A stretch of DNA of 64,000 nucleotides from Micromonospora halotolerans. Its GTDB lineage: Bacteria > Actinomycetota > Actinomycetes > Mycobacteriales > Micromonosporaceae. The notes under the pieces were generated by a model. That model did not search any database. It was not told the origin of the DNA and worked only from the letters and a program-made list of their open reading frames with translations. The stretch covers positions 3,906,001 to 3,970,000 of the forward strand of contig NZ_CP134876.1 in the NCBI RefSeq assembly GCF_032108445.1, written 5' to 3'. Shown here in pieces: positions 32,730 to 39,796 of this stretch (positions are counted from its first letter, which is position 1; each line of letters begins with the position of its first letter). The position numbers and the translations under genes were made by a program.

Positions 32730-33698
32730 TCACCCGCTGCGGTAGAAGCGCTCCGCTCCCGGGTGCAGCGGGATCGGATCGGTGGCGGCCGCGCTGTCCC
32801 GGGTGAAGTTCGCCGCCTCCGGGTGCACCCTGATCAGCTCGCCCTGCCAGGTGAAGAGCACCCGGGTCAGGTCGTACGCGAGCTGGTCGGGCATGTCGGC
32901 CGCCACCAGGATCACGTTCGCCACCGTGATGGTCGGGGTGGCCGCCGGGGTGCCGTAGATGTCCTTGGGCAGGATGGCCGTCGTGTAGACCGAGCCGTAG
33001 CGGGCGGACAGCGGTTCGATCAGCTCGGTGAGCGGGAGCAGCCGAAACGCCCCCGGCGCGCCGGAGAGCAGGTCCTTGATGCCCGGGGTGGGCAGGCCGC
33101 CGGAGAAGAACATCGCATCCAGGCTGCCGGCCCGCATCCGCTGCACCGTCTCGGGCAGCGACAGGTTGAGCCGCTGGATGTCGCGGGCCGGGTCGATCCC
33201 GCCGGCGGTGAGCAGCCGGCCGGCGATGATGTCGGTGCCGGACTTCGGCGAGCCGGTGGAGATCCGCTTGCCGCGCAGGTCGGCGAAGCTGTCGATCTTC
33301 CCGTCGGCGCGGACGATCACGTGGGTGTAGTTGCTGTAGATCCGAGCCAGCGCGCGTACCGGCTGCGGCTGGCCCTCGAAGCCGCCCCGGCCGCTGACCG
33401 CGTCGGCGGCCGTGTCGGCCAGGCTGAACGCGATCTCCATGTCGCCGCCGGCCAGCCGCGTGATGTTCTCCACCGAGGCGCCGGTCGGCTCGGCCCGCGC
33501 CTCGTACCCGGGCAGGTGCCGGCTGATCAGGTCGGCGTAGCCGCCGCCGAGCTGGTAGTAGACGCCGGTGGTGTTGCCGGTGGCCAGGAAGATCCGGCCG
33601 TCGTGCCAGGCCCTCGGCTCGGCGTCCGCCCCGCCGCAGCCCGCCACCAGGGCGGCCAGCAGGAGGGCGGCGACCAGCCGCAGCGGGCGGCCGGTCAC
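32730..33698 (-). CDS. TAXI-type TRAP solute-binding lipoprotein (second copy)
   Basis: A 322-residue extracytoplasmic binding protein of the TAXI family, with a lipoprotein signal (LRLVAALLLAALVAGCGG, lipobox Cys near 21). Family motifs: ATGNTTGVYYQLGGGYADLI, GASVENITRLAGGDMEIAFSLADTA, ARIYSNYTHVIVRAD, LRGKRISTGSPKSGTDIIAGRLL and MFFSGGLPTPGI. It is clearly related to the first TAXI protein in the same operon but diverged. The GTG at 33698 overlaps the roadblock gene stop by GTGA. Placed after the sensor kinase and roadblock genes, it may feed ligand to the sensor rather than to the permease; this is inference. Confidence 0.88.
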   Translation of the reverse strand: MTGRPLRLVAALLLAALVAGCGGADAEPRAWHDGRIFLATGNTTGVYYQLGGGYADLISRHLPGYEARAEPTGASVENITRLAGGDMEIAFSLADTAADAVSGRGGFEGQPQPVRALARIYSNYTHVIVRADGKIDSFADLRGKRISTGSPKSGTDIIAGRLLTAGGIDPARDIQRLNLSLPETVQRMRAGSLDAMFFSGGLPTPGIKDLLSGAPGAFRLLPLTELIEPLSARYGSVYTTAILPKDIYGTPAATPTITVANVILVAADMPDQLAYDLTRVLFTWQGELIRVHPEAANFTRDSAAATDPIPLHPGAERFYRSG

Positions 33699-34087
33699 CG
33701 GCGGGCCGCCGGTTCCAGCGCCTCCGCCACCCGCTGGACCAGCGTCGCCGTCTCGTAGCCGATCTGGCCCAGGTCGCAGCCGGGCGCGGCGAGCACCCCG
33801 AGCAGCGCGCGCTCGCCGACCGCCATCACGAGCATCACCCCGCCGTCCATGTCGACGATCTGCTGGCGTACCCGGCCGGCGGACATCAGCCGGGCCGCGC
33901 CCACGGTCAGGCTGGCCAACCCGCTGATCACCGCGGCGAGCTGGTCCACCTGGTCGGGTGCGAGGTCGGGGGACGCGGCCAGCCGCAGGCCGTCCTCGGA
34001 CACCGCGAGGGCGTGGGACACGTCCGGCACCTGCTCGGCGAAGTTCGCCAGCAGCCAGTCGAGCCCGGCGGTCACGGGTGGGGTCAT
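33695..34087 (-). CDS. Roadblock/LC7 domain protein (conservon CvnB-like)
   Basis: A 130-residue roadblock/LC7 protein: LDWLLANFAEQVPDVSHALAVSEDGLRLAASPDL at the start, then QVDQLAAVISGLASLTVGAARLM and GGVMLVMAVGERALLGVLAAPGCDLGQIGYE. In actinomycete conservons such a protein (CvnB) is encoded right after the sensor kinase CvnA and before a DUF742 protein and a small GTPase, and is thought to regulate the GTPase cycle. Here the DUF742 and GTPase genes are absent and a TAXI binding protein follows instead. Its ATG overlaps the kinase stop by ATGA. Confidence 0.9.
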   Translation of the reverse strand: MTPPVTAGLDWLLANFAEQVPDVSHALAVSEDGLRLAASPDLAPDQVDQLAAVISGLASLTVGAARLMSAGRVRQQIVDMDGGVMLVMAVGERALLGVLAAPGCDLGQIGYETATLVQRVAEALEPAARR

Positions 34088-36498
34088 GGATTTCTCCCGG
34101 TGGGTGTGGTGTTCGGGGCACGGCGCATCGCGCTGGCCACCCCCTCGGCGAGGGCGGACAGGCGGGCGCGTACCACCTCGGGGTCGAGCAGGTCGTCCGC
34201 GGGCCGGGGCGGCGGGGCGGTGGTGGGCAGCGCCGCGGGGAGCTGCCCACCCCGGGTCCGGCGCGGCAGGCCGGCGCCGGTGGTCCCCGCGGGCGCGGGG
34301 GAACTGGCCGGCCGGATCCGGGCGGCGCTCGGCGCCAGCAGGGCGGCGCCCGGTGGGCGTACGGCGGCGACGCCCCGGACGGGGCCGGCGGGCAGCGGCG
34401 GTCCGCCGGCGACCGGCCCGGCGACGGCCGGCGCGGGAGCGGTGACGACCAGGTGGCGGGCGCCGGTGGCCGGCCGCAGCGGGGTCGGGCCGGCGGCGCG
34501 GGGCCGGAACCAGGGCGCCGGGCGGCCGGTCGGATGGCCGCGCTCGGCGGCCGGCCGCCGGGTCACCGACTCGACCCGGGTGAGCACCGACTCGGGCACG
34601 TCCACCTGGGCGACCGTGCCGCTGGCGGTGTGGTGCAGCTGCACCCGGATCCCGTGCCGGGCGGCCAGATGGGCCACCACGTGCAGGCCCATGCTGCCGG
34701 CCGCGGCGCTGGACAGGGTGGCCGGCGCGGCGAGCCGCTCGTTGATGGTGGCCAGCCGGGTCTCGCTGATGCCGATGCCCTGGTCGTGCACCCGCAGGGT
34801 GAGCCCGTCCACGGTGCGCCGCCCGTCGACGAGCACCCGGGCGTCCGGCGGCGAGTAGACGGTGGCGTTCTCCAGCAGCTCGGCCAGCAGGTGCACCAGG
34901 TTGCCGGCCGCCGCGCCGTGCACGGCGGCGGTCGGCACGTCGATCTCGACCCGCGGGTAGTCCTCGATCTCGGAGGCGGCCGCCCGGACCACGTCGTCCA
35001 GGAGCAGCGCGCCCTCGTGCCCCCGGCCGGGTTCGCCACCGGCGAGGACCAGCAGGTTCTCCCCGTTGCGGCGCAGCCGGGCGGCCAGGTGGTCCAGGGC
35101 GAAGAGCCGGGCCAGCGCGTCCGGGTCGGTCTCCTCGCGTTCGAACTCGTCGAGCAGGCGCAGCTGGCGGGTGATCAGCGTGCGGATCCGGCGGGCCAGC
35201 GCCTCGGCCATCCGGGTCACGTCCAGCCGCAGCTCGGCCTGCTCACCGGCGAGCCGCAGGGCGGCCTTGTTGACCGTGTCGAACGCCTCGGCCACCTGGG
35301 CCACCTCGTCGCGGCCCCGGCGGATCCCGTCGGTCAGCCGCGTTGCCGTGCCCGCGCCCGGGCCGCCCTCGCCCGCCGCGATCGCGGTGATCCGGTCCGG
35401 GAGCTCCCGGTTGGCCATGGTGAGCGCCGCGACCCGCAGCCGGCGCAGCCGCCGGCTGGTCCGGACCGCCAGCAGCACGGCGGTGAGCAGCGAGCCGAGC
35501 GCCACGGTGCTGGTCGCCCCGGCGGTGAGCAGGGCCCGCTGCCGGGCGGTCCGGGCCAGCGCCGCGGCGTCCCGGTCCAGCCCGTCGGACAGTTCCCGGC
35601 CGAGGAGGTTGTAGCGGCGGATGGTGCCGCTCTGCGCCACGTACCAGGCGTCGCCGTCGGTCTTCAGCGACTCCGGCCCGCCGTCGCTGTCCAGCACGCC
35701 GTCGCGCATCCGCCGGGCCGTCTCCACGTCAGTACCGCCGACCAGCCGGTACCAGGCGGAGTTGGCGGGGCCGGCGGCGATCCGGAGGAACTCGGCCTGG
35801 CGCTGCTCCCGGGCGCCCCGGAGCCGGCCGAGCCCGGCCAGCTCGCCCCGGACCAGCGCGCCCCGCACGAACACCCCGCGCAGCAGGTCGCGTTCCAGCG
35901 CCGAGAGGTGCTCCTGGGCGGCCACCGCGGCCACCTCGCGCGCCTCGTTGGCCAGTTCGGCGTCGCGGAGCTGGGCGGGCAGCGCGTCGGCGACGGCGAG
36001 CAGGGACTCGACAAGCGAGGCGTACGCCGGGTCGGCCCGGTCCCCGCTCAGCGCCAGGTCCCGCGTCGGCGCGAGCTGGCGGAGCCGCCCGTCCGCGTCG
36101 TCGAGCACCGGGGTGAGGTCGGGTGCGGCCCGGCGGGCGTCGCCGCTCGCAGCGCGGTAGCGGGTGACCGCCGCGTCCACCCGGCGCCGCTGCGCGTCGA
36201 CCAGCGGCCGGCCGGCGGCGCCGCCGCGCTGGCGCAGCGCCGCCGTCTCGCCCAGTTCGCGTTCCAGCTCGTGCACCAGCCGCACGGTGGCGGTGGCGGT
36301 GCCGGCGAGCACGCGGGCCCGGTCGGCGTCGGCGGAGGCGTCCAGCGCGGCGCCGGTCTGGGCGGCGCCCAGCACCACCAGGCCGACCGTGGCCACCAGG
36401 ATCGGCGCGAGCAGTTGGACCCGGACCGAGCGGAGGTGCCCGGTGCGGTCCGCGGGCCGGTGATGCCGGCGTACGCGGGCGGGGTGGGGCAGCGGCAC
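34084..36498 (-). CDS. Conservon-type sensor histidine kinase (CvnA-like, nitrate-sensor-like)
   Basis: An 804-residue membrane sensor. A first transmembrane helix near 28-45 (LLAPILVATVGLVVLGAAQTG) and a second near 315-335 flank a large extracytoplasmic helical sensor region of NIT/NtrY-like type. A HAMP-like linker, a phosphoacceptor-like region (DHLAARLRRNGENLLVL near 468) and a HATPase domain follow: N-box ELLENATVYSPP near 535, G1 VHDQGIGIS, G2 GSMGLHVVAHLAARHGI. A 200-residue Pro/Ala-rich tail ends the protein, as in CvnA. GTG at 36498 has GGGAGA upstream. It lies between two TAXI binding protein genes in one operon with a TRAP permease. Confidence 0.88.
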   Translation of the reverse strand: MPLPHPARVRRHHRPADRTGHLRSVRVQLLAPILVATVGLVVLGAAQTGAALDASADADRARVLAGTATATVRLVHELERELGETAALRQRGGAAGRPLVDAQRRRVDAAVTRYRAASGDARRAAPDLTPVLDDADGRLRQLAPTRDLALSGDRADPAYASLVESLLAVADALPAQLRDAELANEAREVAAVAAQEHLSALERDLLRGVFVRGALVRGELAGLGRLRGAREQRQAEFLRIAAGPANSAWYRLVGGTDVETARRMRDGVLDSDGGPESLKTDGDAWYVAQSGTIRRYNLLGRELSDGLDRDAAALARTARQRALLTAGATSTVALGSLLTAVLLAVRTSRRLRRLRVAALTMANRELPDRITAIAAGEGGPGAGTATRLTDGIRRGRDEVAQVAEAFDTVNKAALRLAGEQAELRLDVTRMAEALARRIRTLITRQLRLLDEFEREETDPDALARLFALDHLAARLRRNGENLLVLAGGEPGRGHEGALLLDDVVRAAASEIEDYPRVEIDVPTAAVHGAAAGNLVHLLAELLENATVYSPPDARVLVDGRRTVDGLTLRVHDQGIGISETRLATINERLAAPATLSSAAAGSMGLHVVAHLAARHGIRVQLHHTASGTVAQVDVPESVLTRVESVTRRPAAERGHPTGRPAPWFRPRAAGPTPLRPATGARHLVVTAPAPAVAGPVAGGPPLPAGPVRGVAAVRPPGAALLAPSAARIRPASSPAPAGTTGAGLPRRTRGGQLPAALPTTAPPPRPADDLLDPEVVRARLSALAEGVASAMRRAPNTTPTGRNP

Positions 36499-36566
36499 GG
36501 GGGTCTCCCGGGTCGTTCGTCGATGGCCGGGCCCGGACGGGTGGTCCGGGCCCGGCCCGTCGGGGG

Positions 36567-37586
36567 TCAGCTCGCGCCGAGGTCCTTGAGCGCCCGGTCC
36601 GCCCCACGGTGCAGCCCCACCGGGTCGGTCTTGCGGGCATTGGCCAGGTCGATGCCCTTGGCGGCCGGGTTGGCCTGGGCCAGGGTGTCCTTCTTCTCGA
36701 AGACCGTCTTCGTGATCACGCAGGCCACGTCGGCGTCGAGGTTGTCGCGGACCAGCAGCACGTTGGGCACCACGATGGTGGGCACGTCGACGCCGGTCCG
36801 GTAGATGTCCTTGCCGATGGTGCCGGCCTGGTACGCCGGGTTCAGCTCGGCCATCTTCGGCAGCAGCGGGCTGATGTCGAGGAACTTCACCTTGTCGCCG
36901 GCGGTGGTGAACAGGTCGGTCACCCCGCCCGTGGGCACGCCGCCGGACCAGAAGAAGCCGTCGATGCTGCCGTCCTTCATTCCGTCGACGGTCTTGGTGA
37001 GGTCGAGCCGTTGCGCCTGGACGTCCTTGGCCGGGTCCAGCCCGGCGGCGGTGAGCAGCCGGTTGGCGATGACCTCGGTGCCGGACTTGGGCGACCCGGT
37101 GGAGATCTTCTTGCCCTTCATCCCGGCCACCGAGGTGATCCCGGAGTCGGCCCGGACGACCACCTGCGTGTAGTTGTCGTAGATCCGGGCCAGCGCCTTG
37201 ACCGGCTGCGGTGAGCTGAAGCTGTCCTTGCCCTGCACCGCGTTGACCGCGGTGTCGAAGAGGGAGAACGCCACGTCGTACTGGCCGGCCACGAGCTGTT
37301 CCACGTTCTGCACCGAGGCGCCGGTCTCGGCGGCGGTGCCGGTGAGCTTGCCACCGGTGGCCGCCGAGAGCTGGCCGGCCAGCGCGTTGCCGACCACGTA
37401 GTAGACGCCCGTGGCGTTGCCGGTGGCGATGCCGACCCGGGTGTCCTTGGTGACCTTGCAGGTGATCTCCCGGGCGGCGTCGTCCTTCGCCGCGCCGTCC
37501 TGACGGCCCCCGCATCCGGCGGCGCCGGCCGCGACCAGGGCCAGCGCCCCGACGCCCGCGGCGATCCGCACGTCGATCCGTCTCAC
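36567..37586 (-). CDS. TAXI-type TRAP solute-binding lipoprotein (first copy)
   Basis: A 339-residue lipoprotein (GVGALALVAAGAAGCGG, lipobox Cys near 25) of the TAXI family that captures solutes for TRAP transporters. Motifs: GIATGNATGVYYVVGNALAGQL, GASVQNVEQLVAGQYDVAFSLFDTAVNAV, MKGKKISTGSPKSGTEVIANRLLTAAGL, FFWSGGVPTGGV. Acidic amino acids or C4-dicarboxylate-like solutes are common TAXI ligands, but the ligand here is unknown. GTG at 37586 has a full GGGAGGAGA ribosome site and overlaps the permease stop by GTGA, so it is translated with the permease. Confidence 0.93.
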   Translation of the reverse strand: MRRIDVRIAAGVGALALVAAGAAGCGGRQDGAAKDDAAREITCKVTKDTRVGIATGNATGVYYVVGNALAGQLSAATGGKLTGTAAETGASVQNVEQLVAGQYDVAFSLFDTAVNAVQGKDSFSSPQPVKALARIYDNYTQVVVRADSGITSVAGMKGKKISTGSPKSGTEVIANRLLTAAGLDPAKDVQAQRLDLTKTVDGMKDGSIDGFFWSGGVPTGGVTDLFTTAGDKVKFLDISPLLPKMAELNPAYQAGTIGKDIYRTGVDVPTIVVPNVLLVRDNLDADVACVITKTVFEKKDTLAQANPAAKGIDLANARKTDPVGLHRGADRALKDLGAS

Positions 37587-39796
37587 TCTTTCTCCTCCCG
37601 GTGGTCCACCAATTCAGCGACCGACGGGCCGCCGGCGCGACCGGCGGAGCCACGTCGGACGAGCACGCCCGCGACGGCCAGCGCGGCGAGCACCGCGCCG
37701 ACCGCGACGGGCAGGGGTTCCAGCCAGAGCAGCACCAGCCCGGCGACCGCGCCGAGGATCCGCTCCGGCGTGCCGGCCGGGCCGACGCCGGGCAGCCAGC
37801 CGCCCGCCGCCACGGCCAGCACGGTGACGCCGAACGCCGAGACCACCGCGGCCACCGCGATCCGCCCGACGCCGCCGATGCCGAGCAGGCCGAGGCCGGT
37901 CGGCGTGATGACGAAGGCGATCGGGATGAGGTACGCGGGCAGCGCGTACCGCAGGGTCTGCCACATGGTCGGCACCAGCCGGCCGCCGGTGACCGCGGCG
38001 GCGGCGACCGCGGCGAGCGCGGTGGGTGGGGAGACCTCGGACAGCACCGCGAAGTAGAAGACGAACATGGCCGCGGCGGGCGCGGCGACGCCGAGGTGCA
38101 GCAGCGCCGGGCCGATGATCACCCAGCCGATCACGAAGGAGGCGGTGACCGGCACGGCCAGCCCGAGCAGGCTGAGCGCGACGGCGGCGAGCAGCGCCGT
38201 GAGGGCGAGCACCACGGCGGGCTCGGAGCTGACCGTCTGCGCCCCGCTGACCAGCAGCGCGGCGGCCTGCGGGCCGAGGCCGGTCTTCGTGGTGGTGGCG
38301 GTGATGATGCCGGCCGCGGCGCAGACCGCGCTCACCGCGAGCACCCCGCGTACGCCGCCGCTGAGCGCCTCGACGAGGCGGGCGGGGGTGAGCCGGTGCC
38401 GGCGGTCCAGGAAGGAGAGCGCGGCGGCCAGCACGGTGGCGATCACCACGGCCCGGGTCGCCGAGGCGCCCATCGCGAGCACCACGATGATCACGATGAG
38501 CGAGAGGAAGTGGTAGCCGAAGCGGAGCAGCAGCCGCCCGGCCGAGCCGGTGTCGATGACCACCGGGCGGACCCCGGAGCGCCGGGCGTCGATCTCGACG
38601 GAGAGCAGGATGCCCAGGTAGTAGAGGATCGTCGGCACGGTGGCCCAGCCGAGCACCTGCAGGTACGACACGCCCAGGTACTCGGCGATGATGAACGCCG
38701 CGGCGCCCAGCGTGGGCGGGGAGAGGATCGCGCCGACGCCCGCGGCTGCCAGCATGCCGCCGGCCCGCTCGGGCGGGTAGCCGGCGCGGCGCAGGATCGG
38801 CCAGGTCACCGCCCCGATGCTGACCGTGGTGGCGGCGCCCGAGCCGGAGACCGTGCCGAGCAGGAAGCCGGAGGCGACGGCCGTGCGCCCGGCGGCGGTG
38901 CGGGAGCGGCGGAACGCGGCGGCGGAGAGCTCGACGAAGAACCGCCCGGCCCCGGAGAGGTCCAGCACCGCGCCGTAGATGGTGAACAGCACGATGTACG
39001 AGGCGGCCACGTCCAGCGGGGTGCCGTAGAAGCCGCTGTCGGAGTTGTAGAACGCGTCGACGAGCTGCGCGAAGTCGAGCCCGGCGTGGGCCACCGGCCA
39101 GGACTGCGGCAGCAGCCCGCCGTAGTAGCCGTAGGCGAGGAACAGCAGGCAGACGGCCGGCAGGATCCAGCCCGTGGTGCGCCGGCACGCCTCCAGCAGC
39201 AGGAGCAGCAGCACGGTGCCCAGCACCACGTCCAGCGGCACGAGCAGGCCCTGCCGGTCGAGGAACGCGTCGTAGCCGCCGCCGCCCGCGCCGAGGGTCA
39301 CCGGCAGCACGGGGTAGAGGCAGGCCAGCAGCGCCACGGCGGCGAGCAGCCAGTCGGCCGGGCTGGGGCCGCGCCGCTCGGCCGGCCCGTCGCCGGCCGG
39401 CCGGCGACGCAGCCGCACCCCGGAGGGGTACGCCAGGAACACCATCGGCAGCACGCCGGCGAGGAAAATGATGAGGTAGTACTTGCTGCCCTGCGGAAGC
39501 GGGAAGAACACCTGCCAGAGCGCGAGCAGCGCGACGGCGAGGGTGCCGCCGGTGAACAGCAGCGCGACCGGTCCGGTCAGCACCCGCCCCGGTTTCTCGT
39601 CCTCGAACCGGGCCGCCAGTTCCCGGGTGTCGTGGTGCGTTTCCGCCGGCCCGTCGTCGGCACACACCGGATCGGCGACCGCGCCGTCATCGGGTGCGAG
39701 CGGCACGGGAGCGGTGTCCACGTCGGACGCCGTGGAATCCGCCGCAGGGGGCCGGGGCGGCGGAAGATTCGCGTCGGAGGAGCGAACGGGCGGCAC
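37583..39796 (-). CDS. TRAP transporter fused permease (4TM-12TM)
   Basis: A 737-residue inner-membrane protein uniting the small (DctQ-like) and large (DctM-like) TRAP permease subunits, the arrangement normally partnered by TAXI binding proteins. After a polar 70-residue N terminus come some 16 hydrophobic helices. Marks include SKYYLIIFLAGVLPMVFLAYPSG, SGAATTVSIGAVTWPILRRAGYPPERAGGMLAAAGVGAILSPPTLGAAAFIIAEY and FVFYFAVLSEVSPPTALAAVAAAAVTGG, typical DctM signatures. It imports solute using an ion gradient. The GTG at 39796 lacks a strong ribosome site; TATCGT eight bases upstream suggests a leaderless start. It heads the five-gene operon. Confidence 0.93.
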   Translation of the reverse strand: MPPVRSSDANLPPPRPPAADSTASDVDTAPVPLAPDDGAVADPVCADDGPAETHHDTRELAARFEDEKPGRVLTGPVALLFTGGTLAVALLALWQVFFPLPQGSKYYLIIFLAGVLPMVFLAYPSGVRLRRRPAGDGPAERRGPSPADWLLAAVALLACLYPVLPVTLGAGGGGYDAFLDRQGLLVPLDVVLGTVLLLLLLEACRRTTGWILPAVCLLFLAYGYYGGLLPQSWPVAHAGLDFAQLVDAFYNSDSGFYGTPLDVAASYIVLFTIYGAVLDLSGAGRFFVELSAAAFRRSRTAAGRTAVASGFLLGTVSGSGAATTVSIGAVTWPILRRAGYPPERAGGMLAAAGVGAILSPPTLGAAAFIIAEYLGVSYLQVLGWATVPTILYYLGILLSVEIDARRSGVRPVVIDTGSAGRLLLRFGYHFLSLIVIIVVLAMGASATRAVVIATVLAAALSFLDRRHRLTPARLVEALSGGVRGVLAVSAVCAAAGIITATTTKTGLGPQAAALLVSGAQTVSSEPAVVLALTALLAAVALSLLGLAVPVTASFVIGWVIIGPALLHLGVAAPAAAMFVFYFAVLSEVSPPTALAAVAAAAVTGGRLVPTMWQTLRYALPAYLIPIAFVITPTGLGLLGIGGVGRIAVAAVVSAFGVTVLAVAAGGWLPGVGPAGTPERILGAVAGLVLLWLEPLPVAVGAVLAALAVAGVLVRRGSAGRAGGPSVAELVDHREEKE

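Follow-up and report, generated by a model that had tools for sequence, protein, structure and literature searches.

A conservon-type kinase, a roadblock protein and a TAXI lipoprotein: a probable binding-protein-dependent sensory module in Micromonosporaceae

Why would one cluster of genes encode two solute-binding lipoproteins of the TAXI family together with the sensor kinase and the roadblock protein of a conservon? This arrangement is found on the minus strand of a 64-kb stretch (64,000 nucleotides, hereafter the window) of the 6.96-Mb genome of Micromonospora halotolerans (contig NZ_CP134876.1, positions 3,906,001 to 3,970,000). The initial annotation read it as one operon of a tripartite ATP-independent periplasmic (TRAP) transporter with an embedded kinase, in which one TAXI protein serves transport and the other delivers ligand to the kinase. 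We found that the locus is composed of two adjoining units, a TRAP permease with its TAXI protein (TAXI1) and a trio of kinase, roadblock protein and second TAXI protein (TAXI2), which we refer to as KRT. The proposed division of labor is well supported by genome comparison, as TAXI2 appears to track the kinase-roadblock pair and not TRAP. Thus, KRT is probably a conservon derivative that works as a binding-protein-dependent sensory module, with TAXI2 as its dedicated sensory binding protein.

A fixed trio, with and without a TRAP transporter

A search of 121 genomes of the family with TAXI2 gave a TAXI match at E <= 1e-20 in 97; counts out of 40 refer to the region around the best TAXI2 match in the 40 best-scoring genomes of the 121, the window's included. 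All 40 genomes, which represent 13 genera, have the kinase, roadblock and TAXI2 genes in this order on one strand. The kinase was whole or nearly so in 38 of them and cut by a contig end in L045, where its last 36 residues remain, and in L062. The trio is intact over the 13 genera with kinase identity as low as 42%, and in most of the 40 loci the TAXI2 gene overlaps the roadblock gene or directly adjoins it. A 4-base overlap between these two genes is widespread, TRAP-less genera included (start codons were chosen by script). Judged from these comparisons, the recurrence of both the gene order and the roadblock-TAXI2 junction exceeds chance. A universal fourth gene was rejected, since the genes flanking KRT vary from genus to genus; a gene for a pyridoxal-phosphate-dependent enzyme (PF00291), for example, follows TAXI2 in the genomes coded g44 and was not seen in other genera. 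Genomes below rank 40 were read in part (e.g., L078 to L080 and L084), with no KRT at the place read. A TAXI2 profile matched 80 named loci, of which 47 carry the trio (46 by script, plus L132, which has a separate conservon in addition); they belong to Micromonospora, Verrucosispora, Planosporangium, Dactylosporangium, Virgisporangium and metagenome-assembled genomes. All these context counts derive from fetched loci, which are a non-random sample, and neighbors were located by tblastn with own-genome queries, which may miss distant homologs.

The trio does not depend on a TRAP transporter. A DctM-family permease is encoded in 21 of the 40 trio genomes and was not detected at E <= 0.001 in the other 19, so that TAXI2 lacks the co-occurrence with the permease expected of a TRAP subunit. 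Completeness is 90% or more and contamination 5% or less in 31 trio genomes, of which 15 are without the permease, and two TRAP-less genomes (G071 and G080) are single contigs with a stated completeness of 100%. The one other partner of TAXI proteins met in the literature consulted is the symporter GltS (PMC12344293). It was found in none of the 19 TRAP-less trio genomes and was therefore rejected as a hidden partner of TAXI2. By location, 11 of the 40 trio loci are neighbors of TRAP-TAXI1 (10 with both on one strand and one divergent), 10 belong to permease-encoding genomes but were not observed next to it, and TRAP-less genomes account for the other 19. Conversely, TRAP-TAXI1 occurs with no trio nearby in L078, L079, L082, L083 and L084. 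Because only 11 loci adjoin TRAP-TAXI1 and 19 are in genomes with neither TRAP nor GltS, we assign TAXI2 to the kinase-roadblock pair; and since the fixed trio persists without a matching transporter, its binding protein is probably the ligand sensor of the kinase rather than a part of transport. The single transporter operon of the initial annotation is a lineage-specific arrangement, as KRT adjoins TRAP-TAXI1 only in the 11 linked loci. In G073, where no TRAP permease was found, an intact trio has two fragments immediately upstream that resemble the latter half of TAXI1 (L058:6749-7119), a situation that looks like a case of transporter lost and sensor kept. A TAXI protein that outlives its transporter would change the annotation of orphan TAXI genes.

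Two trio loci have unusual structures. In L069 (7653-11555), a kinase frame without a stop runs to the end of TAXI2 (1300 codons), with the roadblock gene between them in another frame; it is either an assembly error or a real fusion. One contig of Micromonospora chalcea carries the five-gene locus twice (L094 and L095), in opposite orientation and with equal scores, by duplication or as an assembly artifact.

The locus and its conservon-type kinase

The five minus-strand genes of the window, with their coordinates and joints, are as the initial annotation had described them:

37583..39796, minus strand: fused TRAP transporter permease (DctQM), GTG start, 737 amino acids (TIGR02123, 400.7 bits; PF06808, 187.1 bits)
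36567..37586, minus strand: TAXI1, TRAP-linked TAXI lipoprotein (transport binding protein), 339 amino acids (TIGR02122, 248.2 bits)
36499..36566, minus strand: gap of 68 bases between TAXI1 and the kinase
34084..36498, minus strand: CvnA-type sensor histidine kinase (the KRT kinase), GTG start, 804 amino acids (PF08376, PF02518)
35578..36279, minus strand: NIT extracytoplasmic domain of the kinase, residues 74-307 (PF08376, 105.7 bits)
35089..35091, minus strand: His470, the likely phospho-acceptor, in the motif LDHLA (no variation among the 23 aligned kinases)
34591..34902, minus strand: HATPase_c domain of the kinase, residues 533-636 (PF02518, 44.1 bits)
34258..34269, minus strand: LPxR motif in the C-terminal tail of the kinase (LPRR within GLPRRTR, read directly)
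33695..34087, minus strand: CvnB-type roadblock/LC7 protein, 130 amino acids (PF03259, 70 bits)
32730..33698, minus strand: TAXI2, TAXI lipoprotein of the kinase-roadblock pair, GTG start, 322 amino acids (TIGR02122, 255.2 bits)
33636..33638, minus strand: Cys21 of TAXI2, the cysteine of the lipobox (the same residue in all 24 aligned TAXI2 proteins)

The permease and TAXI1 genes overlap by four bases (GTGA), as do the kinase and roadblock genes (ATGA) and the roadblock and TAXI2 genes (GTGA). The gap before the kinase measures 57 to 78 bases in eight of the nine other same-strand linked loci and 123 in L060. No promoter- or terminator-like site was found in the 68 bases with the sigma-70 consensus, which fits actinomycetes poorly. 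A lipobox can be read directly in both TAXI proteins, which are 45% identical, and a simple lipobox pattern matches 38 of the 40 TAXI2 proteins. With a TAXI gene adjacent to a fused DctQM permease, the first unit is an ordinary TAXI-TRAP transporter like those of VcGluPQM and TtGluBP. TAXI2 is of the same family and matches its solved structures, but it differs in being retained by the TRAP-less genomes and, like TAXI1, departs from VcGluP in a key pocket residue discussed below.

The sensor domain of the kinase, which the initial annotation left unnamed, is a NIT domain (PF08376); in this region, a profile of 23 KRT kinases matches the NasR structure 4akk (E 5.1e-8). Among the 38 KRT kinases longer than 600 amino acids, the LDH histidine and the ENA motif are kept in all and the LPxR tail in 37. 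The available part of PMC4316618 describes this C-terminal motif for conservon kinases. The nearest solved structures of the roadblock protein are 9hef (Rv3364c) and 3leq (CvnB5), so we place it in the CvnB type. KRT therefore shares with conservons (also AGPS; CvnA-CvnB-CvnC-CvnD, e.g., Cvn8 and Cvn9 of Streptomyces coelicolor) a CvnA-like NIT and HATPase kinase with the conserved histidine and LPxR tail, followed directly by a CvnB-type roadblock gene. In contrast to conservons, the unit has no DUF742 protein (CvnC) or Ras-like GTPase (CvnD), and its third gene encodes a TAXI lipoprotein. A fourth gene of the CvnE or CvnF kind was not seen, there being no gene common to all KRT flanks, although GAF domains were not searched for.

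The absence of the DUF742 protein and the GTPase, pointed out in the initial annotation, was borne out. With six same-genome queries, tblastn detected no remnant of either in the window (best E = 0.13), and a pseudogenized copy within these 64 kb was therefore rejected. Nor was either found within the KRT unit in 39 fetched regions; the only matches, in L063, belong to a separate conservon. The arrangement is thus neither unique to this strain nor accompanied, within the window, by a recognizable decayed DUF742 or GTPase gene. An OmpR-type response regulator of the same genome, RR3, had no match at E <= 1e-4 in the 39 KRT regions, other regulator types not having been searched. RR3 was also rejected as an obligatory output: it is found with a third TAXI protein, and G009 and G053 have KRT and no place for this third TAXI at E <= 1e-20. 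Because the trio contains no GTPase, DUF742 protein or RR3-like regulator, its output is probably unlinked. The window genome has ten roadblock loci, six with DUF742 and GTPase, one with DUF742 only and three, the window's included, with neither. Since six conservon loci with a GTPase are present, the roadblock protein may act on an unlinked GTPase, as the initial annotation supposed; these six loci and the one OmpR-type regulator beside the third TAXI are the unlinked candidates. KRT would thus be a natural GTPase-free version of a conservon, whose output must pass via the roadblock protein or an unlinked partner.

The third TAXI of the window genome lies at ~333.7-336.8 kb (L081:7694-10797), away from TRAP and beside an ordinary histidine kinase and the OmpR-type regulator. 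The same TAXI-kinase-regulator set was present in all 16 loci fetched for this TAXI type (L181 to L196).

TAXI2 as the probable sensor and the rival explanations

In the mechanism that we propose, TAXI2, as a membrane-anchored lipoprotein, would capture a small solute outside the cell, and its closed, loaded form would dock on the NIT domain of the kinase. Docking would then alter autophosphorylation at His470, and the roadblock protein, the gene of which overlaps both its neighbors, would act in the cytoplasm to pass on or adjust the signal. With TRAP-TAXI1 immediately upstream, as in Micromonospora, the module would probably report and regulate the uptake of the same solute, whereas in TRAP-less relatives it would sense a solute in the absence of TRAP transport. 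The sequences themselves show the five genes, the constancy of the trio and its independence of TRAP, the kept kinase residues, the pocket predicted alike for both TAXI proteins and the lack of DUF742 and GTPase genes; we infer the docking, the direction of the signal, the role of the roadblock protein, the ligand and the target genes. According to the available part of a 2026 conservon paper (PMC13343842), one conservon kinase, CvnA8, is known to autophosphorylate in a manner that requires a conserved histidine, its phosphorylation target being unknown. As to the input and relay of conservon kinases, KRT is a compact system whose likely sensor is a lipoprotein that can be purified and tested for ligands.

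A working partnership between the kinase and TAXI proteins is favored by the family trees, which were quick searches with SH-aLRT support only. The kinase tree (75 kinases, among them 20 of the 38 KRT and 15 of the 21 LivK-type kinases; rows above 1000 amino acids were cut unless from the window genome) places the 20 trio kinases in one clade with a support of 99. Its sister (support 100) is a Nonomuraea kinase, present in 2 genomes out of 54, that does not group with 28 further conservon kinases of Nonomuraea or with the paralogs of the window genome. In Nonomuraea indica (L177, represented in the tree by the same gene in L332), this kinase is a single protein of 860 residues with NIT, HATPase_c and Robl_LC7 domains in one frame, the roadblock domain being last; kinase and roadblock can thus be one molecule. 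The fused gene is followed by an OmpR-type response regulator and then by a TAXI of the two-component group (L177:3238-12109); the set is divergent from a TRAP-TAXI operon and adjoins a further histidine kinase. In the second genome (L333), the kinase and roadblock matches likewise fall in one frame, and the regulator and TRAP are also present. The tree of 141 TAXI proteins, in which rows above 420 amino acids were trimmed to their last 330 residues (as in the pocket comparison below), requires one label change for the 40 trio TAXI2 proteins (support 79). TAXI proteins beside ordinary two-component systems form one 42-row group (40 such proteins and two with no neighbor seen; support 99), and TRAP-linked ones are spread over several groups, with TAXI1 of the window in a 21-row TRAP-linked group (20 with TRAP, one with no neighbor seen). 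Going by these trees, one kinase subfamily pairs with TAXI proteins of two groups in two actinomycete families. This pairing, together with the kinase-roadblock fusion, is why we favor a working partnership.

What the module might bind can be judged from the predicted pocket. The glutamate-holding positions of VcGluP, given in the available part of PMC11574862, were transferred through HMMER alignments to 13 columns. TAXI1 and TAXI2 of the window agree at 12 of them, and both carry leucine in place of Gln93, the strongest determinant of glutamate binding in VcGluP according to the same source. Because of this replacement, a ligand other than glutamate is likely for both proteins, and plain glutamate is not predicted. 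The mean share of pocket positions equal to those of the window's TAXI1 was 0.825 in TRAP-linked (n = 11), 0.731 in unlinked (n = 10) and 0.490 in TRAP-less (n = 19) cases, while identity outside the pocket changed only from 0.389 to 0.344 across the same groups; 26 of 70 kinase rows were dropped from the linkage comparison as their motif was not found. The trend fits a ligand shared while the transporter is adjacent, with drift after its loss.

Several observations weigh against this reading. The support of 79 for a single origin of TAXI2 is below the 95 mark, and the pocket trend is confounded by phylogeny, the groups being non-independent because 12 of the 19 TRAP-less cases form one subclade. 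KRT was not detected by tblastn (1e-5) at 19 TAXI places in 15 other genomes of a 149-genome phylum sample and for this reason looks like a family-level trait; three of these places adjoin a two-component system. In loci like that of the window, TAXI2 could still serve the adjacent TRAP permease or have a double role. Finally, the contact between TAXI2 and the kinase, the ligand and the regulon are proposed from genome comparison.

One side observation concerns the phylum sample. In L247 (6993-11286), a TAXI gene is divergent from a NIT kinase, with a DUF742-like match downstream and no TRAP match within the 13.8 kb read.

Three other explanations were considered. TAXI2 might be a second transport binding protein that broadens the choice of substrates for the adjacent TRAP permease, the kinase regulating the operon through its own NIT domain. 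The same-strand position of TRAP-TAXI1 upstream of 10 of the 40 trios and the nearly equal pockets predicted for TAXI1 and TAXI2 would suit it; nevertheless, we regard it as quite unlikely, as it leaves unaccounted for the 19 trio genomes with neither a DctM permease nor GltS, the division of loci into 11 linked, 10 unlinked and 19 TRAP-less, and the overlap or contact of TAXI2 with the roadblock gene. The NIT domain might instead sense a small anion directly, with TAXI2 as an output or a co-regulated bystander. Besides the strength of the PF08376 match (105.7 bits), a Glu-Arg pair in helix 5 is retained and seems to align with the pair named near the nitrate pocket of NasR in the available part of PMC7496416 (mapped by eye, with an assumed offset in chain numbering), which argues against our reading, since the kinase might bind such an anion itself; a helix-1 arginine, also mapped by eye, is present in only part of the KRT family. 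Furthermore, most CvnA homologs are said to carry NIT domains in the available part of PMC13343842, which mentions no binding protein. However, the same text states that no ligand has been tested for NIT-bearing CvnA proteins and that certain NIT domains bind neither nitrate nor nitrite, and a bystander would hardly be expected to keep its place at the end of the trio throughout 13 genera, the 19 TRAP-less genomes included. We consider direct sensing unlikely. A conservon in decay, in which the GTPase and DUF742 genes are lost and chance and linkage keep the trio, seems a very improbable account of KRT. The absence of a DUF742 or GTPase match within the unit in all 40 loci would agree with it, as would the loss of the LDH histidine in some GTPase-less LivK-linked relatives, but decay is difficult to reconcile with LDH and ENA motifs in 38 of 38 and LPxR tails in 37 of 38 KRT kinases or with a trio unbroken at 42% kinase identity.

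With TAXI2 as the probable dedicated sensor, KRT can be compared to known systems. In BctC-BctDE and similar binding-protein-dependent two-component systems, the response of the sensor kinase (BctE) needs an extracytoplasmic solute-binding protein (BctC; available part of PMC5812351). One binding protein serves both transport and signaling there, together with a response regulator, whereas in KRT a roadblock protein and a kinase of conservon type are joined by a TAXI of their own, and the 39 regions gave no RR3-like match, that regulator type alone having been searched. The TAXI-GltS pair of Bordetella pertussis (BP0403/BP0402; available part of PMC12344293) resembles KRT in having a TAXI outside a TRAP context, but its partner is a transporter, of the very kind missing from the TRAP-less KRT genomes. 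Among open-licence papers, none was found that pairs a conservon with a TRAP transporter, and the literature matches listed name no TAXI- or LivK-linked conservon kinase; the word "transporter" is absent from the main text of PMC13343842.

Possible coupling of conservon kinases to other binding proteins

The window genome has a second locus devoid of GTPase and DUF742 genes, at ~442.6-447.6 kb on the minus strand (L205:1626-6623). It encodes a kinase, a roadblock protein, a LivK-type ABC binding protein (PF13458, 239 bits) and a LivH-like permease; LivH and some other gene names were assigned by eye, with no family search. A LivK search in the 121 genomes found a roadblock gene beside LivK in 29 of the 30 best loci, the remaining one being at a contig end, and a conservon GTPase between the two genes in 8 of the 30. 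In 20 larger regions chosen from the LivK matches, a kinase-roadblock pair was present at LivK in all 20, one of them divergent, and a GTPase in nine.

The coupling to solute-binding proteins may be general, because the same genome has this LivK-linked pair. A further case is L178 (6086-14208), from a metagenome-assembled actinobacterium, in which a conservon of kinase, roadblock, DUF742 and GTPase genes lies directly upstream of TRAP-TAXI on the same strand. Together, the LivK loci and L178 suggest that conservon kinases have repeatedly been coupled to solute-binding proteins. A broader proposal is that conservon kinases and roadblock proteins have repeatedly been made into receptors for such proteins, as in KRT, in the kinase-roadblock(-GTPase)-LivK loci and in the Nonomuraea fusion with regulator and TAXI. 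The binding protein would be a dedicated sensor, and signaling would be possible without a transporter and, in KRT, without a linked GTPase. We advance it tentatively, judging its chances to be somewhat short of even. If true, conservon kinases would have a third kind of input in addition to GAF accessory proteins and bare NIT domains.

The LivK-linked kinases vary at the LDH motif. Asparagine or serine replaces the histidine in the GTPase-less L312 to L316, and the histidine is kept in three kinases with a GTPase (L317, L318 and L320) and in four GTPase-less ones (L324 to L327); for the remaining 8 of the 20, the pattern did not detect the motif. A third kinase-roadblock pair of the window genome with no DUF742 or GTPase match (L201:1929-4837) lies beside a likely glycosyl hydrolase family 1 gene, also named by eye.

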